Origin: Pareuzebyella sediminis
GTDB lineage: Bacteria > Bacteroidota > Bacteroidia > Flavobacteriales > Flavobacteriaceae
Direction of reading: 5' to 3'
Assembly: GCF_008367235.1 (NCBI RefSeq)
Contig: NZ_VTZS01000002.1
Span: 248,001-312,000, forward strand
DNA length: 64,000 bases
The notes under the pieces were generated by a model, which had not been told where the DNA came from, ran no database searches, and saw only the letters and a program-made list of their open reading frames with translations. The position numbers and the translations under genes are program-made. Of the stretch, positions 2,626 to 20,321 are shown piece by piece. The first letter of the stretch is position 1. Every line of letters starts with the position of its first letter.

Positions 2626-4695
2626 CTATTCGAAATCGGCCTCGGTAACACCTTCATTGACCTTGATTTCCTGAACGACGAAATCAAAACTTTGGGGACC
2701 TACAGTTTGGGTGATTAGAAAAGGGAATAATATTCCTGAAACCTCTTGATAATCAGCGTAATTTAATATGCTTGTCATTAACTGTCCGCCCATTTCCGTT
2801 GTCGTTGTTTCCTGAACTTTTAGTCCGGTTTCCACATCATAGAATGCATTTTTGTCTTCCGATAATTTTATTTTATAGGCTTTTTTGCCATTTATGGTTT
2901 CAATGCCTTCAATGGCCGTGTCAGCTTTTAACATGGAAACCTCGGGAAAAAGTATCGACTCTTCCCTCATTTTTTTCAATTCTTCAGGTCCCATGTCTTG
3001 GCGTTGACCTTGTAGAATCATATATCCAGTGTCATGATTAATGACCTGTTTGCTCATAGAATTGCCTGCGACTTTAATTTCTTGCATGAACTGGTCCTTA
3101 CCCGCTTTTTTCATTTCTAATTGCAGTTGCATACCTTGCATTTGCGCTTCGGCACTTAGCGCAAATGCCGATACACTTTTCAAGTTTTCCAATCCTCCAA
3201 TGGCATTAATATAATGTTGTAATACCTCTTCGGAGGTAATGTCTTCCGAAATGCCTGCCTCATAATTAGGCTTTGAGGTCGGTTCGGCATGGGTATCGTA
3301 ATACTTTATGGGCACCTTTTCTCCTACGAAAGTAACTTGCCCTAAGTTTTCAAGCACTTCGTTTCCCTTGCCCGTAACTACGATACGGGCTTTAGCAGGT
3401 GTAATATATTTACGGGCAGCACTTTGTACTTCTTCGATGGTAATTGCATTTAAGCGCTCTAAATAGGTTTTGTAGAAATCTTCGGGAAGGTTCTCCGTCT
3501 GAATATCCAATGCATATCTGGCAATGGTCGCTGGATCTTCGAGTGCCATGACAAAACTACCCGTATATTTTGCCTTGGTATTTTCCAGCTCACGTGCTGT
3601 AATTGGTTCTTCCCGTATCTTTTTCATTTCTTTTAGAATTTCGACTACAGCGCTGTCCGTTACGGCATTTCGTACACTGGCAGAGGCCCTAAATCTTGCC
3701 GGGGCGTATTTATCATTGCCTACGCGTGAATACGAACCATAAGTGTAGGCCTTGTCTTCCCTCAAATTAAGGAATAATCTGCCTTCGCCCCCACCTCCAA
3801 GAATTTCATTGGCAATTATGGCCGAAAGATAATCGGAGTCGTTCTTTTTGAGGTCTACAAGATTTTCAACGGTGATTTCAGACTGTACGGCATTGGGCAT
3901 ATCGACGAAATTAATTTGGGTGTACTGTACCTCCGAAGGTCTGCTAAACGTAAAAGAGGGAGGGGCCGCTTTTGTCCAAGGTGTGAAGAATTTCTCAACA
4001 AGTTTTTCCACTTCGTCATAATTCACATCTCCAATAATGACCAAGTAGGCATTTGCTGGAACGAAGTAGTTTTCATAAAACTTGGCGACGTCGGTCAATT
4101 GAATGTTATTTACGGTTTCTTGAGTAGTAAATTCCCCATAGGGGTGGTTCTTGGTATAGGCCAAGGCTAAACTCACTCTTTGTGCGATGGCGGAAACGTC
4201 TTTTTCTTGGGCCTTAAGACCGGTTAATAATTTTTGTTTTTCCTTTTCGAACTCTTCCTGAACGAAATTTGGGTGTATGGCGGCCTCGGCCAACAGCTCC
4301 AGAATACGGGAAAAATATTTGGAAAGACCGCTGGCAAAGGCACTTTGCGACCCAAAATTGATGCGGGCACCTAGAAAATCGACCTCTTCGTTAAATTCAT
4401 CTTTTGGAATGTTCTTCGACCCTTGCCCCAATAAACTTGCGGTTAGCATTGAAACGCCTGCTTTATCCCCCTCTAAAATGGGAGGATTATCAATAAGCAG
4501 TTGAATGGAAACCCTTGGTAGTTTGTGATTTTCAACAACAAGAACCTGAAGACCGTTCTTCATTTCAAAAGTCTTGGGGTCTTGTAAGTTGATTTCAGGA
4601 GCGGGCCCCGGTGCGGGCATCTTGCTACGGTCTACCTGTGCATAAGTGTGTACCGTTAGCACTGTTAATAAAAAGGTGAAATAAATTTTTTTCAT
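2626..4695 (-). CDS. M16-family peptidase homologue, non-catalytic subunit with extra C-terminal domain
   Basis: 689 residues with a signal peptide (MKKIYFTFLLTVLTVHTYAQ). Residues of about 40-450 are two M16 repeats (KNGLQVLVVENHKLPRVSIQ; later EILGGGGEGRLFLNLRE). The zinc motif HxxEH is absent: the aligned place reads GVSMLTASLLGQGS. It is therefore most likely the inactive partner of the M16 enzyme encoded 66 bases upstream. After the M16 part there are about 220 further residues (from ITSEEVLQHYINAIGGLENL on) that look like a LolA/outer-membrane lipoprotein-sorting type beta fold. The pair is predicted to act in the periplasm. Confidence 0.85.
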   Translation of the reverse strand: MKKIYFTFLLTVLTVHTYAQVDRSKMPAPGPAPEINLQDPKTFEMKNGLQVLVVENHKLPRVSIQLLIDNPPILEGDKAGVSMLTASLLGQGSKNIPKDEFNEEVDFLGARINFGSQSAFASGLSKYFSRILELLAEAAIHPNFVQEEFEKEKQKLLTGLKAQEKDVSAIAQRVSLALAYTKNHPYGEFTTQETVNNIQLTDVAKFYENYFVPANAYLVIIGDVNYDEVEKLVEKFFTPWTKAAPPSFTFSRPSEVQYTQINFVDMPNAVQSEITVENLVDLKKNDSDYLSAIIANEILGGGGEGRLFLNLREDKAYTYGSYSRVGNDKYAPARFRASASVRNAVTDSAVVEILKEMKKIREEPITARELENTKAKYTGSFVMALEDPATIARYALDIQTENLPEDFYKTYLERLNAITIEEVQSAARKYITPAKARIVVTGKGNEVLENLGQVTFVGEKVPIKYYDTHAEPTSKPNYEAGISEDITSEEVLQHYINAIGGLENLKSVSAFALSAEAQMQGMQLQLEMKKAGKDQFMQEIKVAGNSMSKQVINHDTGYMILQGQRQDMGPEELKKMREESILFPEVSMLKADTAIEGIETINGKKAYKIKLSEDKNAFYDVETGLKVQETTTTEMGGQLMTSILNYADYQEVSGILFPFLITQTVGPQSFDFVVQEIKVNEGVTEADFE

Positions 4696-11854: not shown

Positions 11855-12375
11855 TTTTATTCGGTCCCGAATCCACGGGCAAGACCACATTGTCACAGCA
11901 ATTGGCAGCACATTACCGTACGGTATGGGTTCCGGAGTATGCTCGGGAGTATCTTCAAAAAAAATGGAACGACCAGCGCACCACCTGTGAGCCCAAAGAT
12001 CTTTTGCCCATTGCTGAGGGGCAAATAAGTTCGGAAAACGAACTCACCAAGAAAGCTAATAATTTACTCATTTGTGATACGGACTTATTGGAGACTAAGG
12101 TATATTCAGAAGCGTATTATGTGGGTCATTGTGATCCATTGATAGAAAGGTACGCTTTAAAGAATTCATATGACCTGTACCTTTTGACCTATATCGACAT
12201 ACCTTGGGTAGGCGACGACCTTCGTGACAAGCCAGATGAACGGGAGCGTATGTTTGAATATTTCAGAAGTACCTTGGAAAAATATCATAGGAATTTTGTT
12301 ATATTGAAAGGGAATAAAAAAAAGCGGTTTACGACCGCTGTGAAGCATATTGATAAACTGTTATTTTGCAAATGA
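11809..12375 (+). CDS. nadR: NadR-like ATPase / nicotinamide riboside kinase
   Basis: 188 residues. The P-loop GPESTGKTTLSQQL is at about residues 19-32, followed by VPEYAREYL, AEGQISSEN and ICDTDLLETKVYSEAYY, all typical of the C-terminal kinase domain of NadR. The nucleotidyltransferase and repressor domains of enterobacterial NadR are absent. The enzyme phosphorylates nicotinamide riboside to NMN. The start overlaps pnuC by 46 bases; the true start could be slightly later. The stop overlaps the next start codon as ATGA. Confidence 0.88.
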   Translation: MEEKLEQEPSDVVKVVLFGPESTGKTTLSQQLAAHYRTVWVPEYAREYLQKKWNDQRTTCEPKDLLPIAEGQISSENELTKKANNLLICDTDLLETKVYSEAYYVGHCDPLIERYALKNSYDLYLLTYIDIPWVGDDLRDKPDERERMFEYFRSTLEKYHRNFVILKGNKKKRFTTAVKHIDKLLFCK

Positions 12376-13919
12376 TACTGACCGAAAAAGACTTGGAATT
12401 ACTCGCTGAAAAAGGAATATCTGAAAAAAAAGTAAATGCACAAATAGAAACCTTTAAGGAAGGTATACCTTTTGTTGAGCTTGAAAAAGCCGTTACTGTA
12501 GGTGAAGGGATTTCAAAATTTACTCCAGAGGAAGAGCAACAACTCATTCAAATTTTTGATACTTCGCAGAGTGAGTTATCGTTGCTGAAGTTTGTGCCCG
12601 CTTCCGGTGCCGCATCGAGAATGTTCAAAGACCTTTTCAACTTTTTGGAAGCCTATGATCCTTCTTCGGAAAGCCTCGAAGACTATATTGAAAGAACAGG
12701 TGATTCCGCGATAAAGAAGTTTTCTGAGGGACTGACTGCTTTTCCTTTCTATAAAAAGGTAGCAAAGAGAATCACTGGAAAGGCAGATTCAAAAGATGAA
12801 GAGGTATATCTTTTTGTTAAGGAAATGATGGATGAAAATGCCTTAAACTTTGGATTTTATCCCAAAGGACTTTTACCCTTCCACGACTATGGAAAATATG
12901 CTGCAACTCCTTTCGAGGAGCATTTGAAAGAAGCCTCGGTGTACGCTAAGACCGGAGACACCGCGAATTTACACTTTACCATTTCCGAGCAGCATGGCCA
13001 AATGTTCAACGAAGAGTTCTCAAACATTAAGGAACGAGTGTCCACAGATACCCATACCTCTTTTAAGGTAAGTTATTCCTATCAAAAATCCTCTACTGAT
13101 ACCATAGCGGTGGATATGAAGAACGAGCCTTTTAGAAACGAAGATGGTTCGATACTTTTTAGGCCTGGTGGGCATGGGGCACTCATTGAGAACCTCAATG
13201 ACCAGGATGCGCAAATCATTTTTATTAAGAATATAGATAATGTAACCGTACCCAGATTTGCCGATGAAGTTGCAAATAGCAAAAAAGTGCTGGCCGGGGT
13301 ATTGCTGAAAGTACAGGAAAAGGCTTTCGCATTTGCAAAACAATTAGACGAAGGTGGCCTTACGACAGATCACTTAAGACAAATTAAAGAATTCTTGGAG
13401 GATGAGCTGAATGTTCGTTTTTCTAAAAATTTCGTTGGTTTCAGTGTAGGAGAGCAAATCGAGATATTAAAAGACAAAATAAATAGGCCGATCCGTATTT
13501 GTGGGATGGTTAAAAATGAAGGCGAGCCTGGGGGAGGTCCATTTTGGATCAAAGATGGCAATGGCAATATTTCACTGCAGATTATAGAGTCTGCTCAGAT
13601 AGATATGAACGATAGGGCTCAGGCAGATATCCTTAAAAATGCCACTCATTTCAATCCCGTAGATTTGGTATGTGGAGTAAAGAACTATAAAGGTGAAAAG
13701 TATGACTTGATGGAATTTGTGGATACCAAACAAGGCTTCATTACCGGAAAGACGAAAGACGGAAAGGAATTAAAGGCTCTCGAACTGCCTGGCTTATGGA
13801 ACGGGGCCATGGCTTTTTGGAACACACTTTTTGTTGAAGTGCCCTCATCGACCTTCAATCCGGTCAAAACCGTAAATGACTTACTTAGACCTGCCCATCA
13901 AGTGACGTCTAGTAATTAA
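12372..13919 (+). CDS. DUF4301 family protein, nucleotidyltransferase-like
   Basis: 515 residues from the ATG at 12372, which overlaps the nadR stop as ATGA. The protein is a full-length DUF4301 member with no known function. I see LKFVPASGAASRMFKDLFNF (about residues 74-93), reminiscent of the GGxGTRM loop of sugar nucleotidyltransferases, and RPGGHGALIENLNDQDAQII followed by FIKNIDNVTVPRF (about 260-295), like the GGHG and KNIDN motifs of UDP-sugar pyrophosphorylases. A GT-A type nucleotidyltransferase role is therefore inferred. Its fixed coupling to pnuC-nadR suggests, but does not show, a link to pyridine nucleotides. Confidence 0.8.
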   Translation: MILTEKDLELLAEKGISEKKVNAQIETFKEGIPFVELEKAVTVGEGISKFTPEEEQQLIQIFDTSQSELSLLKFVPASGAASRMFKDLFNFLEAYDPSSESLEDYIERTGDSAIKKFSEGLTAFPFYKKVAKRITGKADSKDEEVYLFVKEMMDENALNFGFYPKGLLPFHDYGKYAATPFEEHLKEASVYAKTGDTANLHFTISEQHGQMFNEEFSNIKERVSTDTHTSFKVSYSYQKSSTDTIAVDMKNEPFRNEDGSILFRPGGHGALIENLNDQDAQIIFIKNIDNVTVPRFADEVANSKKVLAGVLLKVQEKAFAFAKQLDEGGLTTDHLRQIKEFLEDELNVRFSKNFVGFSVGEQIEILKDKINRPIRICGMVKNEGEPGGGPFWIKDGNGNISLQIIESAQIDMNDRAQADILKNATHFNPVDLVCGVKNYKGEKYDLMEFVDTKQGFITGKTKDGKELKALELPGLWNGAMAFWNTLFVEVPSSTFNPVKTVNDLLRPAHQVTSSN

Positions 13920-13974
13920 TAATGGTCTACTAACATAAGAATAGAACTCTTATAAGGCCGGTTGTGCGAAAAGT

Positions 13975-14014
13975 GTGTAACTTTTACACATAGACTACAG
14001 TTTTTTACACATAC
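13975..14014 (+). promoter_or_regulatory. Upstream element pair of the first PepSY-like gene
   Basis: Element A, 13975-13989, is a perfect inverted repeat GTGTAA-N3-TTACAC. Element B, 13996-14014, is TAC-N7-TACACATAC. Both recur in the same order before the two paralogues downstream. They lie about 150-190 bases before the start codon, like enhancer sites. Confidence 0.6.
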
Positions 14015-14097
14015 CTATACATTTTTCAGTAGCGCTTATATTGAATTAAATTACTGAAATTCAGGATATTATAATCAAATCATGCATTAATTCTTAC

Positions 14098-14113
14098 TTG
14101 GCATCATTTTCCC
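14098..14113 (+). promoter_or_regulatory. Shared core-promoter-like motif, first PepSY-like gene
   Basis: TTGGCATCATTTTC lies about 65 bases before the start codon. The same TTGGYAYYAT core precedes the second gene (15003) and the third (15799). None of the three has a good TAnnTTTG nearby. It may be a sigma-54-like -24/-12 pair with a poor -12, or a TTG box of a weak vegetative promoter. Confidence 0.4.
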
Positions 14114-14162
14114 ACTATAGTTAACGATTATCAAAACAAATAGTAATCTAAAATAAAGGAAA

Positions 14163-14489
14163 ATGAAAAATTTAATGTTTGCCGCAGTATTGTCTCTAGG
14201 AACAATGACTGCTTTTGCTCAAGAAGAAACAGCTATCGAAGAAACTGCTACAGAAGTTGTTGAAACGACTGAAGATGCTGCTGATCAAGTTCAAGATGGT
14301 TTTAACGAAGTTGCTGTTGAAGAAATTCCTGAGGCTATCACCGAGGCTTTAGAAGCAGCTCATCCAGGTGCTACAATTTCTAAAGCATACATGAACGAAG
14401 AAGCTCAATACAAATTGGAAGTTGCCAAAGAAGATGGTGAAACAGCTGAATTGTACGCTGATGCCGAAGGCAATTGGATTGATATGTAA
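14163..14489 (+). CDS. PepSY-like secreted protein, paralogue 1
   Basis: 108 residues: signal peptide MKNLMFAAVLSLGTMTAFAQ, an acidic Glu/Thr/Val-rich stretch (21-50), then a small domain with EIPEAITEALEAAHPGATIS, KAYMNEEAQYKLEVA and a terminal YADAEGNWIDM. This resembles the PepSY-like (DUF2874) beta-lactamase-inhibitor-like fold found in many exported Bacteroidota proteins. It is the first of three tandem copies (also at 15057 and 15863), each with its own upstream elements and terminator. Function is unknown; periplasmic or outer-membrane-facing location is inferred from the signal peptide. Confidence 0.8.
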   Translation: MKNLMFAAVLSLGTMTAFAQEETAIEETATEVVETTEDAADQVQDGFNEVAVEEIPEAITEALEAAHPGATISKAYMNEEAQYKLEVAKEDGETAELYADAEGNWIDM

Positions 14490-14524
14490 TTCTATTATGT
14501 GGCCGATTTGATTCGGCAACAAAT

Positions 14525-14560
14525 AACTCCGTCAAGCCTTGGGTTCGACGGAGTTTTTTT
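14525..14560 (+). terminator. Terminator of PepSY-like gene 1
   Basis: AACTCCGTC (14525-14533) and GACGGAGTT (14547-14555) form a perfect nine-pair stem followed by an uninterrupted T run. Confidence 0.92.
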
Positions 14561-14890
14561 ATGCCTAAACCCCTAGGGAAAACTATTTTGATAGCAGCTC
14601 TAACGATTTCCTAGGGTAAGTGTAACCGAAGATAGTCCGTGGTGTCTAATGTCTCCCATCATGTTGAGATACCATCGTACGATTCTTATTTCTTCTTAAG
14701 GAATTGCCGGCTGGCAAGTGCTATTGTGGGATACCAGTATCATATCGGTGGTCTTTGTCGCACGGTAGGGCCCCCTAAGATGTCTGTTACCAATAGGGGC
14801 GTTCAAATTTATGTTCTTGTAAAGAGTAATAAGTTAGGGTAACCCATAGCGGTGTAGGAGTGCCATCTTTAGCTTGATAGCGATGCAATT
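14561..14890. other. Intergenic stretch without visible gene
   Basis: About 330 bases between the terminator of copy 1 and the upstream element of copy 2. The only open frame (14639-14842) has no start context, no family features and an unlikely composition. I see nothing else in it. Confidence 0.5.
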
Positions 14891-14940
14891 CGTATATATT
14901 TTACACAATTTTGGAGTCCAACTACTCAAAATTACACAGT
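14891..14940 (+). promoter_or_regulatory. Upstream element pair of the second PepSY-like gene
   Basis: Element A, 14891-14905, reads GTATAT-N3-TTACAC (two mismatches to the perfect repeat before gene 1). Element B, 14922-14940, reads TACTCAAAATTACACAGTT. The distance to the start codon at 15057 is about 117-166 bases. A further half-site, GTGTAG, follows at 14947-14952. Confidence 0.55.
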
Positions 14941-15056
14941 TTTTTAAGTGTAGAATCGATTCAATTTATTGATAGACAATGCCTTATATTTTTTTTGATT
15001 GTTTGGTACTATTATTTCTTTACTTGATATAGTATAATATTAAAAATTTAGAAGTC

Positions 15057-15368
15057 ATGAAGAAAATATTTGTAACAGCAGTATTTGCTCTAGGTAGTTT
15101 GACAGCTTTTGCACAAGAGGAAGCCACATCGACCGTAGAAGAAAATGCAAGTGAGGCGATAGAGGCACAACAAGATGGTTTCGCCGAGGTATCTGCAGAG
15201 GAATTACCGGAAGCAGTTACTGCGGCCGTAGCTAAAAATTATCCAACAGCTTCTATTGATAAGGCTTATGTTAATGAAGATAAGCAATACAAACTGGAAG
15301 TTTCACTTGAAGACGGTACTTCTGGAACACTGTATGCAGACGAGAACGGTAACTGGATCGAAATGTAA
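15057..15368 (+). CDS. PepSY-like secreted protein, paralogue 2
   Basis: 103 residues. Signal peptide MKKIFVTAVFALGSLTAFAQ, an acidic Thr/Ser/Glu-rich segment, then the same C-terminal module as its neighbours (DGFAEVSAEELPEAVTAAVA; KAYVNEDKQYKLEVSLEDGT; YADENGNWIEM). The mature domain is the best conserved part; the acidic linker differs in length. The gene is flanked by its own promoter elements and terminator, so it is a separate transcript. Confidence 0.8.
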   Translation: MKKIFVTAVFALGSLTAFAQEEATSTVEENASEAIEAQQDGFAEVSAEELPEAVTAAVAKNYPTASIDKAYVNEDKQYKLEVSLEDGTSGTLYADENGNWIEM

Positions 15369-15408
15369 ATAACTTGAGTTATTTGTTTTGTATCAAGTTG
15401 GTTTGGTC

Positions 15409-15444
15409 AGAAAGGGGTTGTGTTTACACAGCCCCTTTCTTTTG
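15409..15444 (+). terminator. Terminator of PepSY-like gene 2
   Basis: AGAAAGGGG (15409-15417) pairs with CCCCTTTCT (15432-15440). The stem continues inward through TGTGT/ACACA, giving a long hairpin with a two-base loop, followed by TTTG. Confidence 0.85.
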
Positions 15445-15690
15445 TATGGAATTTTAAATAATAATACGATCTAGATTTTACTTTTATTTTGTGGGCAAAG
15501 GTCATAAGAACCAATTGAACTTTGACATAAAAAATGGTGCGGAGTTGTATTGGAGGATTTGAACTTGCGGTAAATAAATTTTGAACAGGCAGTAAAAGTA
15601 TCTTGACCAGATGATCATCCTAGTTGAATCGCTCCGTATTTTGGCTGTCCTCTCACCACACTAAATTGGTGACAAGGAGGTTTCGTAACT

Positions 15691-15738
15691 GTGAAAATTT
15701 TACACGGTTTGGGGAACTTTACTCGTATCTACACAGTT
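15691..15738 (+). promoter_or_regulatory. Upstream element pair of the third PepSY-like gene
   Basis: Element A, 15691-15705, reads GTGAAA-N3-TTACAC (one mismatch to the perfect repeat). Element B, 15720-15738, reads TACTCGTATCTACACAGTT, matching the copy before gene 2 at 14 of 19 positions. The spacing to the start codon is about 125-172 bases, nearly the same as for gene 2. Confidence 0.55.
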
Positions 15739-15862
15739 CATAAATAAGCATATATTTTTAAATATCTGAAAATCAAACACTTGAATAATCATGCGTTTTT
15801 GGTATTATATTTTCAATGTATCTAGGGAAATTAATTAATAATTAAATTAAAACCAGAACATC

Positions 15863-16168
15863 ATGAAAAAGTTATTTATCACAGCAGTTTTAGCATTAGG
15901 AAGTATGACAGCATTTGCTCAGGAAGAAGCAGCAACCGAAGCACAAGATACAGCAACTGAGGCTGTAGCTCAAGACGGCTTCAATGAAATCGCCGTTGAG
16001 GAAGTACCTGAAGCTATAACTACCATGATCGAGACCAATTATCCTGGCGCTACGATCAATAAAGCCCATAAAAACGAAGAGAATCATTACAAGGTTGAAG
16101 TTTCATTGGAAGATGGAACTACAGGAGCTCTTATCGTTGATGAAGAAGGTAATGCTATAGAGCAATAA
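15863..16168 (+). CDS. PepSY-like secreted protein, paralogue 3
   Basis: 101 residues with signal peptide MKKLFITAVLALGSMTAFAQ and the same module (DGFNEIAVEEVPEAITTMIE; YPGATINKAHKNEENHYKVE). It differs from the other two by replacing the aromatic end NWI with NAIEQ and by a shorter acidic linker. It is the last of the array, with its own terminator, and lies 188 bases before the sigma-54 activator gene. Confidence 0.8.
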   Translation: MKKLFITAVLALGSMTAFAQEEAATEAQDTATEAVAQDGFNEIAVEEVPEAITTMIETNYPGATINKAHKNEENHYKVEVSLEDGTTGALIVDEEGNAIEQ

Positions 16169-16216: not shown

Positions 16217-16249
16217 AAAGGGAGCCGCTATTTAGCGGCTCCCTTTCTT
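16217..16249 (+). terminator. Terminator of PepSY-like gene 3
   Basis: AAAGGGAGCCGC (16217-16228) and GCGGCTCCCTTT (16235-16246) form a perfect 12-pair stem with a six-base loop and an A-rich 5' flank; the T tail is short (TTTCTTG). Confidence 0.88.
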
Positions 16250-16356: not shown

Positions 16357-17727
16357 ATGCCCAACCTTTTAATAATTGAAGACGATTCTGCTTTTTGTCA
16401 AATGCTGCAGAAGTTTTTGACAAAACGCAATTATGAAGTAATGGCTAGTTTCTCAGCTTCCGACGCACAGGAGAAGTTTAAAAACAACCATTTTGATGTT
16501 ATACTGACTGATTTAAGATTGCCTGAATATGATGGCATTAAGCTATTGACCGACATAAAAACAGTTAGTCCGAAAACACAGGTTATTTTGATGACCGGCT
16601 ATGCGGAGGTAGGTTCCGCGGTGAATGCCATGAAAAAAGGAGCTTTCGATTATATATCAAAACCTTTTACCCCGGATGAAATTGTTATGATCATCGAAAA
16701 TGCATTGAAAGCCGAGGTTTCTTCACATTCCATTCAGAATGATAACAATACTACAAATCGTACCTCTCAGAAAGATACTAAAGCCGATAAAACGAACTCG
16801 GCCTATATTGTAAAGGGTACCAGCGAAGCATCCAAAAAGTTAGATGACTACATTAAGTTGGTGGCACCTACTGATATGTCCGTCTTGATCACAGGGGAAA
16901 GCGGTACTGGTAAAGAGGTGACTGCCAAGGCTATTCATGATAACAGTAAGCGTAAAGATTTCAATTTTATTGCGGTTGATTGTGGGGCCATACCGAAAGA
17001 ATTGGCGACCAGTGAGTTTTTCGGTCATATCAAAGGTAGTTTTACCGGGGCCGTTGAAGATAAGATGGGCAACTTTGAGGCTGCCGATAAGGGCACCTTA
17101 TTTTTGGATGAGGTCGGAAACCTGTCCTATGAGAATCAAATACAGTTGTTAAGGGCCCTTCAAGAGCGCAAGATAAAGCGCATCGGTAGCACAAAGGAAA
17201 TTACGGTCGATGTACGAATTATTACTGCTACCAATGAAGATTTAAACAAAGCTGTAGAAAATGGTACCTTTCGCGAAGACCTATATCATAGGTTAAATGA
17301 GTTTTCCGTACAAATTCCTTCCCTAGAAGATCGATTTGAAGATTTGATGCTCTTTGCAGAAAATTTTTTGGATAAAGCGAACACAAGCCTAGATAAAAAT
17401 ATACAAGGGTTTACCAACGAGGTATGGGAAGCTTTTCGTCAATACCATTGGCCGGGAAATCTAAGAGAGTTACAGAATGTGATCAAAAGAGCGGTATTGT
17501 TGACCACTGGCGAAGAGGTTGAAATTCAGGCCTTACCAAGAGAAGTACTTCAGTCACGGGAAAAAGAGTCGGTCGCAGATAATTTCTCCAAATCGGAGTT
17601 CGAAAAAGACCAAATCATCAAAGCCCTAAAAAAAACCAATTTCAACAAATCAAAAGCGGCAAAGTTGCTTCAGGTTACCCGAAAAACACTTTATAACAGA
17701 ATCAACCACTATAATTTAGACTTGTAG
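16357..17727 (+). CDS. NtrC-family sigma-54-dependent response regulator
   Basis: 456 residues in three parts: receiver domain with phospho-acceptor Asp52 (LTDLRLPEYDG), AAA+ domain with Walker A GESGTGKE (about 180-187), sigma-54 contact loop GSFTGA (GAFTGA variant) and Walker B GTLFLDEVGNL, then a Fis-type DNA-binding helix-turn-helix (FNKSKAAKLLQVTRKTLYNR). It activates transcription at sigma-54 promoters from upstream sites. The three PepSY-like genes just upstream carry enhancer-like elements and are candidate targets. Its 3' end overlaps the convergent histidine kinase gene by 26 bases. Confidence 0.93.
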   Translation: MPNLLIIEDDSAFCQMLQKFLTKRNYEVMASFSASDAQEKFKNNHFDVILTDLRLPEYDGIKLLTDIKTVSPKTQVILMTGYAEVGSAVNAMKKGAFDYISKPFTPDEIVMIIENALKAEVSSHSIQNDNNTTNRTSQKDTKADKTNSAYIVKGTSEASKKLDDYIKLVAPTDMSVLITGESGTGKEVTAKAIHDNSKRKDFNFIAVDCGAIPKELATSEFFGHIKGSFTGAVEDKMGNFEAADKGTLFLDEVGNLSYENQIQLLRALQERKIKRIGSTKEITVDVRIITATNEDLNKAVENGTFREDLYHRLNEFSVQIPSLEDRFEDLMLFAENFLDKANTSLDKNIQGFTNEVWEAFRQYHWPGNLRELQNVIKRAVLLTTGEEVEIQALPREVLQSREKESVADNFSKSEFEKDQIIKALKKTNFNKSKAAKLLQVTRKTLYNRINHYNLDL

Positions 17728-20182
17728 GCAAACGATTTTCCAATGCCGAAACGAGAGCTCGAACACTTTCCTTGAGCGCTTCCAAAGCCTTGACCAAATC
17801 ATCTGGACCTAACGATTGAGGTGTCGCGATTTCCATGCGCTCCAATATTTCAACACAAACACCGGTTTTCAATTGACGATACATAGGTAGCATTCGATGT
17901 GCTACCTCATTCATTTGTTTATAATCTTTGTGGGATATGGCATTTTCCAATAGTGCCATATTGGAGTGGGTGTCGGACAAAAATGTTTGCAAGACCTCAT
18001 GTATGGCTTCGTCGCTTTGTCCGAGAAATGAATAGATAATCTCAAGGCTGTATAGTGAAGATTCCGGATCTTTAATCTGTTGACCGGGTTCCTTGGCCCA
18101 GCCTTGGTCTGTAACGATACCCATCAATTTCAGCGTGGCTACGAGCTCCCCTTTTGAAAAAGGTTTCTGTAAAACTTGGGCAAAGCCCACACTGATATAG
18201 GCTTCTGGTCCAAGATCTCTACGCCCTGTCATCGCTACGATGGGTTGGTTTTTATAATGTTTATAATTACCCGACCGTAACTTCTTAAGCACTTCGAAAC
18301 CGGTCACCTGTGGCATCTGAATGTCGGTAAGGACGATGTCGTATGCCAAATGGGAATCTCTTTCTATGGACAGGAAATTGGTATAGGTATGCACCGTAAT
18401 ACCCATACTTTCGGCTAATTCCCTTAGCATGTGCAACAGCGCCGTATCGTCGTCAATAATCAACATTCTCAATTTAGAAACCATATAAGGTGATTCTTGC
18501 GCCTTATTTAACTGTATTTCAGTAACTTCTAGAGGCAATTGGAGTGTGAAAGTACTGCCTTCGCCTAACTTACTCTGGAGGCTTAGATTTCCTTGGAGAA
18601 GCTCCGCGAGCTTTCTTGAGATGGTAAGCCCAAGACCATACCCGCCGAACTTTTTATCGGTATCTCTATCGGCTTGGGTGAATTCCTTGAAAATTAGATG
18701 CTGTTTTTCTCTGGCGATCCCAATACCGGTATCCGATACCGCAATTTTGGCGTGAAAGGTTTTGCCCTTTGCCCGTTCGAACGAAGCCACAACTTTAATA
18801 GTACCTTCTTCGGTGAATTTGAATGCATTTCCAATAAGATTCGTCAAAATTTGCCGTATCCTGAAGGGGTCTCCCAAAACAGTTTGCTCGAATTCGGGAT
18901 CTACATCAAGTAGCAATTTTAAATTCTTATGGGCATTAAGTGCCTGAAGATTTTCAGCCGTTTCTTGAATGAGGTTTGCTGGTATAAAAGGAATGCGCTC
19001 GGTTTTTAACTTTCCTGCCTCTAATTTCGAGAAGTCGAGCAAATCGTTGACCAAGTTGCCTACATATTCTGAAGCAGACTTTACGTTTTTTATGTATCCC
19101 GATTGCTTCTTTGAGAGTTCCGTGCTCTCGAGAAGCTCTGAATAACCACTGATGGTATTCAAAGGAGTTCTTAAATCATGGCTTACCGTGGAAATCAATT
19201 GTTCGCGACTTTTTAAAAGAGATTCCGAGAATTTTTTCTCCTTTTCGAGTCTCATCCTATAGGTCTGTACTTTCCAGAAATCCCGGGTAATGAGAAAAGA
19301 AAAAAGTCCTACGATGGCAAAGCCCAAAAGGGCGGCCAGCCCTGCAATTCGTGTTGTTCTTCTCAGGGTTTCCCGCTTTTTGAGACTATTGTTATAACTA
19401 CTTGCCAGTACCTCTCTTTCGAAGGCTGCAATAATATTTTGTAGTTGCTGTGAAAGCTCGAGGTCGTTTCTATTCATCTCAATCTCTTTTTGCGCAAGCG
19501 ATCTTTGAGATCTGGAGTCTGCCAGTTGTGCCTTTCGCAACATTTCCTTAGAAACACTCAGAATTGAATCGACATAGTGCGCATTTTCGATGCCATCTGA
19601 ATTTTTAGGGGAATTGGCACTGAAGAGCGCTGCTACCTCACGGAGAGATTCTTGTACTTTGGGAGAGGCCTGACTATAATTCGGGAAAAGGTTTTCGGCG
19701 GAAAATTTTCCCATAGATTCTTCAATTTTCTCGAATTCTTTGAGTGCGCGTTCCAGAAAATTATCCGGATTATTTTGCAGTTTAAGCTTTCTTAATTCCC
19801 GGTTGTTTTCAAGCTTTTGGTCTAACAGTAGTCCTAAGCTATCCAATAGGCCTTTTTGCTCCGAGCCCGACATTAATCCCCTTAATGTATCGATTTCCAT
19901 TTGAATGGTATCGATTTTTAGGACGTAGGCATCATAATTTATCTGGCTTTCCCGCTGAAGTGCCAATTTCGAAAGGCTTTCGGCTTCGTAAATTTTGGTG
20001 AACAAAGTACTGGTCTTCAATAATTTCCTGTCATTGACATCTGCGGTTTCAGTAGAAACATAGGTTTTGATTTCGGTATAGACGAAATACCCTACCGCGG
20101 CTGCCAGAAAGGCTAAAATCATGTAACTGGCTATTATTTTGAGCGTGAACTTATTTTTAGACTGTGGTGATTCGTTTGTCAT
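17702..20182 (-). CDS. Hybrid sensor histidine kinase (HK-REC-Hpt)
   Basis: 826 residues from the ATG at 20182; an ATG nine bases upstream is also possible. A first membrane helix (about 13-33), a long helical periplasmic region and a second helix (about 272-294) lead to a DHp domain (VSHDLRTPLNTISGYSELL, His about 335), a HATPase with NLIGNAFKFTEEG, DTGIGIA and GGYGLGLTISRKL, a receiver domain (DIVLTDIQMPQVTG) and a C-terminal Hpt domain with His at NEVAHRMLPMY. The phosphorelay output is unknown. The convergent NtrC-type regulator is the obvious candidate partner but is not proven. Confidence 0.9.
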   Translation of the reverse strand: MTNESPQSKNKFTLKIIASYMILAFLAAAVGYFVYTEIKTYVSTETADVNDRKLLKTSTLFTKIYEAESLSKLALQRESQINYDAYVLKIDTIQMEIDTLRGLMSGSEQKGLLDSLGLLLDQKLENNRELRKLKLQNNPDNFLERALKEFEKIEESMGKFSAENLFPNYSQASPKVQESLREVAALFSANSPKNSDGIENAHYVDSILSVSKEMLRKAQLADSRSQRSLAQKEIEMNRNDLELSQQLQNIIAAFEREVLASSYNNSLKKRETLRRTTRIAGLAALLGFAIVGLFSFLITRDFWKVQTYRMRLEKEKKFSESLLKSREQLISTVSHDLRTPLNTISGYSELLESTELSKKQSGYIKNVKSASEYVGNLVNDLLDFSKLEAGKLKTERIPFIPANLIQETAENLQALNAHKNLKLLLDVDPEFEQTVLGDPFRIRQILTNLIGNAFKFTEEGTIKVVASFERAKGKTFHAKIAVSDTGIGIAREKQHLIFKEFTQADRDTDKKFGGYGLGLTISRKLAELLQGNLSLQSKLGEGSTFTLQLPLEVTEIQLNKAQESPYMVSKLRMLIIDDDTALLHMLRELAESMGITVHTYTNFLSIERDSHLAYDIVLTDIQMPQVTGFEVLKKLRSGNYKHYKNQPIVAMTGRRDLGPEAYISVGFAQVLQKPFSKGELVATLKLMGIVTDQGWAKEPGQQIKDPESSLYSLEIIYSFLGQSDEAIHEVLQTFLSDTHSNMALLENAISHKDYKQMNEVAHRMLPMYRQLKTGVCVEILERMEIATPQSLGPDDLVKALEALKESVRALVSALENRLPTSLNYSG

Positions 20183-20321
20183 AAGACCCATCTGAGGAAT
20201 ATCTATTACTAAAAATACGTATATAAAGACGATAGGGTTGATAACGAATCGTTAATTATTACCCTACGTTCAGGGGACCGCTTTTTTTGAAGTAGGATTA
20301 TGATATGTAAAATGCCGCACT

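Follow-up and report, generated by a model that had tools for sequence, protein, structure and literature searches.

A candidate sigma-54-type control module repeated before tandem PepSY-like genes beside a two-component system in Pareuzebyella sediminis

Introduction

In the DbfQRS system, a small PepSY protein binds the sensory domain of the kinase and shifts it towards phosphatase activity, and the pathway is activated by outer-membrane damage (PMC12714742). ZraP is called a repressor of ZraSR in the title of a reference in PMC4987338. At the level of DNA, NtrC recognizes TGCACC(A/T)4TGGTGCA (PMC4987338), canonical sigma-54 promoters end in TTGC (TGGCACN5-7TTGCT; PMC12316311), and the Escherichia coli integration host factor (IHF) has the consensus WATCARxxxxTTR (PMC3897727). 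Here we analyzed a 64,000-nucleotide stretch of Pareuzebyella sediminis DNA (contig NZ_VTZS01000002.1, positions 248,001 to 312,000, forward strand), referred to below as the window, in which three tandem genes for secreted PepSY-like proteins (14163-16168) are followed by genes for a sigma-54 response regulator and a hybrid sensor kinase. The region upstream of each PepSY gene consists of four parts, A, B, D, and P. We read it as a sigma-54-type enhancer and promoter driven by the neighboring regulator, with a probability of about 0.82. A first-pass annotation of the window had described a two-part upstream element; its parts, our A and B, are real, but they are half of a larger region, and P, D, and the adjacent regulator gene had been overlooked.

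Results

Conserved elements upstream of PepSY-like genes

PepSY matches numbered 114; without 2 that had <200 base pairs (bp) of upstream sequence and 3 that lay 3′ of the regulator, 109 upstream regions remained, the window's three included. De novo expectation-maximization on these regions (40 random seeds) converged, among its 15 best runs, on A, B, and TGGcAt.ATtTTttC (P). Both A and P were found in 97 of the 109 regions, which precede orthologous and paralogous PepSY genes. The earlier suggestion of an enhancer-type region duplicated together with the genes is thus supported, as it also is by the sigma-54-like character of P and by the adjoining sigma-54 activator, and the absence of the elements from orthologous loci, named at the time as a refutation, was not seen. 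Strict A and P statistics were taken from 91 regions (posterior of >0.9 and an A-P distance of 95 to 135 bp). Model R1 and a cross-genera alignment were made from 40 regions, selected by hand out of 81 eligible ones to give a good spread; every invariant column (17) and every nearly invariant column (9) of the alignment fell within A, B, D, or P. The three gene copies are paralogs (proteins 2 and 3 are 56% and 63% identical to protein 1), which would suit the idea that the elements are inert leftovers of a recent tandem duplication. That idea is already contradicted by this conservation, and the module is also present at single-copy loci and before unrelated efflux-adaptor genes; we regard it as very improbable.

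A is a dyad, TGTGTAA-N3-TTACACA, and the proposed response regulator site. The copies noted earlier before each of the three genes are all present, on the forward strand like every window feature below unless stated otherwise: A1 (TGTGTAACTTTTACACA; 13974-13990, core 13975-13989) matches at 12 of 12 positions, A2 (CGTATATATTTTACACA; 14891-14907, core 14892-14906) at 10 of 12, and A3 (TGTGAAAATTTTACACG; 15690-15706, core 15691-15705) at 11 of 12. As a lone signal, A was rejected: the window has 5 matches with ≤2 mismatches, compared with an average of 2.37 in shuffled sequences, of which 11 in 100 reached 5. The genome search proposed in the first-pass annotation gave just two more matches beyond the locus at ≤1 mismatch, both in stretches judged by eye to be coding. 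The signal lies in the position and combination of the elements.

B is a direct repeat, TACACA-N4-TACACA, located at 14006-14021 (B1, TACACATACCTATACA), 14923-14938 (B2, TACTCAAAATTACACA), and 15720-15735 (B3, TACTCGTATCTACACA). The TAC-N7-TACACA strings first reported as B do exist, but the one in copy 1, at 13996, is 10 bp out of register. Copy 1 has three half-site-like strings at 10-bp steps (13996, 14006, and 14016), the first an extra TACAGT, and the pair that matches the other copies is the one at 14006-14021. The reported A-B spacing of 6, 16, and 14 bases, taken as variation by one helical turn, results from this misregistration; in the corrected register, the centers of A and B lie 31.5, 31.5, and 29.5 bp apart in copies 1 to 3, and this distance is between 29.5 and 31.5 bp in 83 of 89 regions that have A, B, and P. 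Across the 91 strict regions, TACACA half-sites (≤1 mismatch) peak at +3 (86), +23/24 (62), and +33/34 (71) from the center of A, which places them on one helix face. B is not specific alone: a stand-alone B model trained on distant loci gave equal or higher scores elsewhere in the window, the top one at 4645. Its best score near copy 1 fell at 14001, and the composite model described below picked 14006.

P is found in the window at 14098-14113 (P1, TTGGCATCATTTTCCC), 15003-15018 (P2, TTGGTACTATTATTTC), and 15799-15814 (P3, TTGGTATTATATTTTC), by the motif and composite models alike, and resembles a −24/−12 sigma-54 promoter whose GG lies 52 to 63 bp ahead of the ATG. The −24 box has the GG of a sigma-54 promoter, at a frequency of 0.99 at both positions of the promoter model. 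Predictions of sigma-70-type promoters were rejected as a signal, since their 9 matches equal the shuffle mean of 9.0. TAnnTTTG is the −7 box of Bacteroidetes; it had no fixed position in these regions, the best offset accounting for 8 of 91. The center of A lies 103 to 118 bp upstream of the GG in the window copies, within the 80 to 150 bp at which enhancer sites of AAA+ activators are expected, and such activators are encoded in the genome; binding of one at A is our proposal. An activator dyad at this distance from the −24 box and an IHF-like site in the interval match the layout of sigma-54 promoters given in PMC7057263 and PMC4987338.

An IHF-like dyad and whole-turn spacing

D is a 25-bp dyad that resembles two back-to-back IHF sites. 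It emerged first as a fourth block in the 40-region alignment and then from random-seed expectation-maximization in the A-P spacer, and its posterior exceeds 0.5 in 89 of the 91 strict regions. In the window, D1 (TAAATTACTGAAATTCAGGATATTA; 14047-14071) has one mismatch to the IHF consensus on the forward strand and D2 (CAATTTATTGATAGACAATGCCTTA; 14962-14986) has two, also on the forward strand, and D3 (TAAATATCTGAAAATCAAACACTTG; 15759-15783) contains the exact consensus (AATCAAACACTTG). Exact matches to WATCARxxxxTTR occur in the A-P spacers of 22 of 91 regions on the forward strand and 33 of 91 on the reverse strand, compared with averages of 1.28 and 1.24 in shuffled sequences (at most 4) and with 2 for a reversed control. 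D might instead be the operator of a second, dimeric regulator, so that the promoter would integrate two inputs. The near-perfect symmetry of D, set against the asymmetry of the IHF consensus, speaks for an operator, as does its presence at fixed distances in 89 of 91 regions; against it, each half of D follows the IHF consensus, and IHF acts between enhancer and promoter at sigma-54 promoters (PMC3897727, PMC7057263). We consider a second operator unlikely, although well worth keeping in mind, and prefer D as a predicted bending site.

The D-P distance in the window is 41, 31, and 30 bp in copies 1 to 3, a difference of about one turn that puts copy 1 in a long class and copies 2 and 3 in a short one; the one-turn argument made for A and B, wrong there, thus has a counterpart between D and P. 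Over all regions, D-P is 30.4 ± 0.65 bp (34 regions) or 41.3 ± 0.56 bp (55 regions), and none of the 89 regions with a confident D has a distance of 33 to 39 bp. A-D is 75.0 ± 1.1 bp (76 regions) or 86.2 ± 0.55 bp (12 regions), with one region at 65 bp. The steps of 10.9 and 11.2 bp therefore occur in two different intervals, and the best single period for A-P is 12.2 bp. On a protein tree, the spacing classes require at least 10 changes by parsimony, of which starred branches force only 2 to 3 per class; the tree (84 columns, 91 rows, 9 of 87 inner branches starred) is poorly resolved and the number of independent shifts unsure. Whole-turn spacing changes appear from these comparisons to be tolerated and half-turn changes not, as a looped enhancer-polymerase contact predicts, with the caveat that the regions are related and give no count of independent events.

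Specificity of the composite module

A composite score for A, B, and P, trained and tested on the same regions, gave 93 matches, all before PepSY genes (which is circular for the positives), and none away from PepSY genes in 1,367,790 bases. In a cross-validation, 48 regions from 38 more distant loci served to train the model, which was then tested on the window and 27 nearer loci with a cut-off of 14 bits. Composites of ≥14 bits were found at 56 of 63 PepSY genes in these 28 held-out loci and nowhere else in 474,841 bases on either strand. In the window, this model gave the three copies 47.1, 46.4, and 45.3 bits; no other place on either strand scored above 8.1. A sequence-only covariance model that included the window copies recovered the three from the 4.9-Mb genome with E values of 1.5e-16, 3.8e-14, and 1.6e-13; no further match in that genome was under E 0.05, the next being E 0.08.

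The linked regulator and kinase

The gene order is PepSY three times, regulator, kinase. By domain search, the regulator gene (16357-17727) encodes an NtrC-type protein with a receiver, a sigma-54 AAA+ domain, and a Fis-type helix-turn-helix, in which the usual GAFTGA loop reads GSFTGA; we propose it as the activator. Its proposed partner, a hybrid sensor kinase (17702-20191, minus strand; HisKA, HATPase_c, and receiver domains, with a weak Hpt match at E 0.078), is encoded convergently and overlaps the regulator gene. Among 66 regulator orthologs, the GSFTGA loop is 98 to 100% identical per position, and mean identity is 87% in the recognition helix versus 65% in the receiver. The protein scored 380.2 bits against the ZraR equivalog model (NCBIfam cut-off, 760 bits) and was also under the cut-offs of the AtoC, NtrC, and PEP-CTERM models; no equivalog cut-off was reached among the 25 models listed, so the regulator is not ZraR, AtoC, or NtrC as such. 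The genome encodes one RpoN and, among 13 PF00158 matches, five strong sigma-54 activators.

We compared the best 80 regulator loci among the matches listed: 67 with at least 54% identity (among them L059, whose reading frame appears broken), 12 with 43 to 47%, and one (L098) cut by a contig end. The kinase gene is convergent and 3′ of the regulator in all 67 closer loci, at about 1.1 kb in L056. PepSY genes stand 5′ of the regulator in 62 of these 67, in 1 to 5 copies and counting a weak one in L070; in two of the five loci without PepSY genes (L040 and L043), the regulator is near a contig end. The 12 loci with 43 to 47% regulator identity had no PepSY matches. Tandem copies in other genera each come with a module version of their own and for the most part cluster by copy, a grouping drawn from short proteins with weak support. 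A DUF4301 gene lies ahead of the PepSY cluster in the window (12366-13919), and one is present at 53 of the 67 relatives' loci.

Co-occurrence across 199 family genomes

In 199 genomes of the family, the regulator was found in 59 (E 1e-140), PepSY genes in 59 (E 1e-6), and both in 55. The element was found in 53 genomes (E 0.001), 46 of which have the regulator (Fisher P value of 9e-26, with shared ancestry ignored), and all 43 genomes with an element at E <5e-5 have it. The seven genomes with an element and no regulator at E 1e-140 have weak element matches (E 7e-5 to 8e-4). One of the seven, G180, encodes a small protein that matches PepSY weakly, lacks any Pfam hit, and is accompanied by a composite of 29.0 bits (L216, 6880-11197, minus strand), adjoining a different sigma-54 response regulator, a kinase, and an Na+/H+ antiporter gene; the other stretches from this group (L165 to L169, L171, and L172) have no PepSY gene and a composite in L169 only (14.6 bits). 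Three genomes (G023, G112, and G221) have regulator and element and no PepSY match at E 1e-6; the element of G112 sits at an efflux-adaptor gene.

Elements far from the regulator and at efflux-adaptor genes

Extra elements precede PepSY genes on other contigs or far from the regulator in G030, G207, G117, and G103, the last with two (91 and 714 kb away). G073 has its regulator on contig 5 and two elements on contig 1; of these, one precedes a PepSY gene and the other a decayed stretch that closes with a terminator-like sequence similar, by eye, to the one after window copy 2. L156 has a full A-B-P composite of 60.8 bits at about 1130-1680 on the minus strand with no PepSY frame of ≥60 amino acids behind it, apparently the remains of a PepSY gene that has kept an intact control region.

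Model matches also precede genes for RND-efflux membrane-fusion (adaptor) proteins in G140 (E 2e-5), G117 (E 1.6e-5), and G112 (E 2.8e-5). In G218, an RND adaptor gene with a composite of 33.6 bits upstream is followed, judging from translations, by permease and TolC-like outer-membrane channel genes. These four genomes (L217 to L220) all have the regulator, and B is poor in G218 and G112. A scan of 30 adaptor loci, from 31 matches, gave composites of 58.8 (L186), 59.2 (L192), and 33.6 bits (L187), with B poor in the last two; the best score among 600 random 480-nucleotide stretches of the window was 2.2. The composite scan missed L191 (G117), which has the model match and a TGGCAC-N5-TTGAC string. 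The element was present at 4 of 10 adaptor loci with ≥42% identity and at none of 20 with ≤38%, and efflux adaptors were rejected as a general target. Elements at PepSY genes remote from the regulator and at efflux adaptors suggest a regulator that acts in trans, with a role in the envelope or in efflux.

The PepSY-like proteins and terminator-like repeats

The three genes (14163-14489, 15057-15368, and 15863-16168) encode proteins of 108, 103, and 101 amino acids with secretion signals recognized by eye. All three score below the gathering cut-off of PF11396 (PepSY_like; 28.3 bits), at 17.1 (E 0.0071), 23.8 (E 5.6e-5), and 24.6 bits (E 3.2e-5), and for proteins 2 and 3 this sub-cut-off family was the sole PepSY model matched. 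The structure of protein 3, predicted from an alignment of 37 sequences that included itself, has a mean predicted local distance difference test score of 73 and a confident mature domain of one helix and four strands. Its top PDB matches (3db7, 3due, 4dsd, and 3elg) have probabilities of 0.96 to 0.99 and E values of 0.05 to 0.13, none reaching E 0.001, and span about 60 columns of chains of 126 to 127 residues. The predicted fold (E 0.05 and weaker) and the sub-cut-off scores together support kinship with PepSY proteins.

In line with the separate terminators first noted, a terminator-like repeat follows each gene. After gene 1, it is an imperfect inverted repeat with a T run (14512-14568), recognized by reading the sequence and absent from the terminator scan list; the scan gave hairpins after gene 2 (15409-15440) and gene 3 (16217-16246).

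Observations that weigh against the proposed control

Several observations weigh against a sigma-54-type module driven by the linked regulator. The first concerns the −12 box of P, in which the C is retained at the right distance (0.89) and the −13 G is replaced: the −13/−12 pair is TC or CC in 78 of 91 regions and GC in 1 of 91, for which reason P is described as sigma-54-like only and its use of sigma-54 is a proposal. As a control we took groES, a gene that PMC9723704 lists as lying behind sigma-54-type (SM4) promoters in Flavobacterium psychrophilum, with upstream regions from 30 of 31 genomes searched in the same order (Flavobacteriales), the window's genome included. A TGGYA candidate lies within 260 bp in 29 of 30 regions, against 6 for a reversed control string, and −13 is G in 32 of 48 candidates, doubtful ones included (GC in 15, GA in 10, GT in 5, and GG in 2). 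P is therefore not an ordinary sigma-54 box, and because the control mostly keeps the G, its loss more likely belongs to the PepSY promoters than to these bacteria. We read P as having a specialized −12 box, although it could instead be used in another way. The candidate nearest groES in the window's genome reads TGGCATAATTTCTGCC. In the groES regions (L221 to L250), candidates often read TGGCAY-N7-GC or GA, and in many regions a TGGCATTTTTT string stands some 40 bp upstream of them; in the window's genome, this string resembles the end of a terminator hairpin.

Second, B is a direct repeat and not the dyad expected for a Fis-type dimer. Direct repeats are typical of OmpR-type rather than NtrC-type regulators. 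With the noncanonical −12 box, this would agree with A and B being sites of a different, unlinked transcription factor at a promoter independent of sigma-54, the neighboring regulator controlling something else. Such a factor would have to be reconciled with the presence of the regulator in every one of the 43 genomes with a strong element, with its strongly conserved recognition helix, and with sigma-70 matches at chance level and a Bacteroidetes −7 box at no fixed place; we judge it improbable and retain the linked regulator as the activator.

Third, the association has exceptions. Twelve of the 109 upstream regions, several of them belonging to further tandem copies, lack A or P. No element at E ≤0.001 was found in 13 of the 59 regulator genomes; 12 of these 13 have PepSY genes near the regulator, with a composite of 13.5 to 37.9 bits before the cluster in a looser scan. 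Of those 12 composites, 10 score above 20 bits and two do not surpass the 14.6 bits reached at stretches without PepSY genes; two lie >330 bp before the gene. Four genomes (G109, G142, G199, and G202) have a PepSY gene and neither regulator nor element at the thresholds used. At two Flavobacterium loci (L075 and L077), regulator and kinase are kept, but the stretch lacks a PepSY gene and the genome gave no element at E ≤0.01. Finally, 6 of the 10 closest efflux-adaptor orthologs lacked the element in the scans made.

Discussion

Comparison across genera and genomes shows four elements in fixed order and spacing, their linkage to the regulator, their co-occurrence with it, and their specificity. 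From these patterns we infer how the circuit may work. Each PepSY gene would be transcribed from its own sigma-54-type promoter P; the response regulator would bind the dyad A and the phased half-sites of B and activate P from upstream, and a DNA-bending protein of the HU/IHF family at D would fold the enhancer back to the polymerase. The convergent hybrid kinase would phosphorylate the regulator upon an envelope condition. By analogy with the action of DbfQ on DbfS and of ZraP on ZraSR, the small secreted PepSY proteins would act in the periplasm, probably as negative feedback on the kinase.

A broader proposal, which we advance tentatively and would sooner bet against than for, is that flavobacteria have a sigma-54 architecture unlike the enterobacterial one, with a dyad plus a phased direct repeat, a symmetric IHF-like site, and a −12 box without G. 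It would form a dedicated promoter class read by this regulator only, whose spacers evolved in whole 11-bp turns in two intervals and whose regulon grew in some lineages to include an RND efflux operon, which would point to envelope stress. If spacers did evolve in whole turns, they would be a naturally occurring record of the evolutionary constraint imposed by looped enhancer-polymerase contacts.

For a two-component system that is conserved in flavobacteria and for which we found no targets described in the open-access literature searched, the locus offers a concrete and testable pair of regulator and target. Its four elements and naturally occurring one-turn spacing variants make it possible to test enhancer looping directly outside Proteobacteria. 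The absence of G at −13 stands out as a specific anomaly in how sigma-54 promoters are recognized, and a scan with the canonical consensus would tend to miss such promoters. The link of PepSY proteins with a two-component system, joined in some genomes by an efflux pump, suggests an envelope stress circuit parallel to DbfQRS and ZraPSR.

A sigma-54 enhancer and PepSY genes beside a two-component system are known kinds of arrangement; what is new to us is that they occur together, along with the direct-repeat form of B, the symmetry of D, and the change in the −12 box, and no description of this module was found in the open-access literature searched. The locus resembles the DbfQRS type of Vibrio cholerae in having small secreted PepSY genes, identified by signals seen by eye, sub-cut-off scores, and fold, within four genes of a response regulator and a histidine kinase; two PepSY genes in some species and periplasmic feedback on the kinase are also reported for that type (PMC12714742). 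It differs in that dbfQ is predicted to be cotranscribed with dbfRS (PMC12714742), whereas each PepSY gene here has its own sigma-54-type promoter and enhancer, in the 1 to 5 PepSY copies of relatives, and in having a convergent hybrid kinase. The groups named for DbfQRS-type modules are Proteobacteria, Terrabacteria, and Fusobacteria; the searched text of PMC12714742 contains no instance of the term Bacteroid-. The best fold matches are the BT0923/DUF2874 PepSY-like periplasmic proteins of Bacteroides (PDB 3db7, 3due, 3elg, and 4dsd). BT0922 and BT0923 are likewise adjacent PepSY-like genes (PMC10434189); regulation there, unlike that proposed here, is reported to be iron responsive.

The ZraP-ZraSR system of Salmonella and E. 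coli also has a sigma-54 response regulator that controls a neighboring gene for a small periplasmic protein (PMC4987338). ZraP, however, is a zinc-binding chaperone and not a PepSY protein, and zraP and zraSR are divergent and both ZraR dependent (PMC4987338), whereas the composite scan of the window gave no match at the regulator gene. As in NtrC-type enhancers, A is a 17-bp dyad of 6-5-6 form (PMC4987338) located about 100 to 120 bp upstream of a −24/−12-like promoter with an IHF-like site between. The window module departs from that type in its TACACA half-site, in a second element, B, that is a direct repeat lying three turns downstream from A, in the symmetry of D, and in its noncanonical −12 box.

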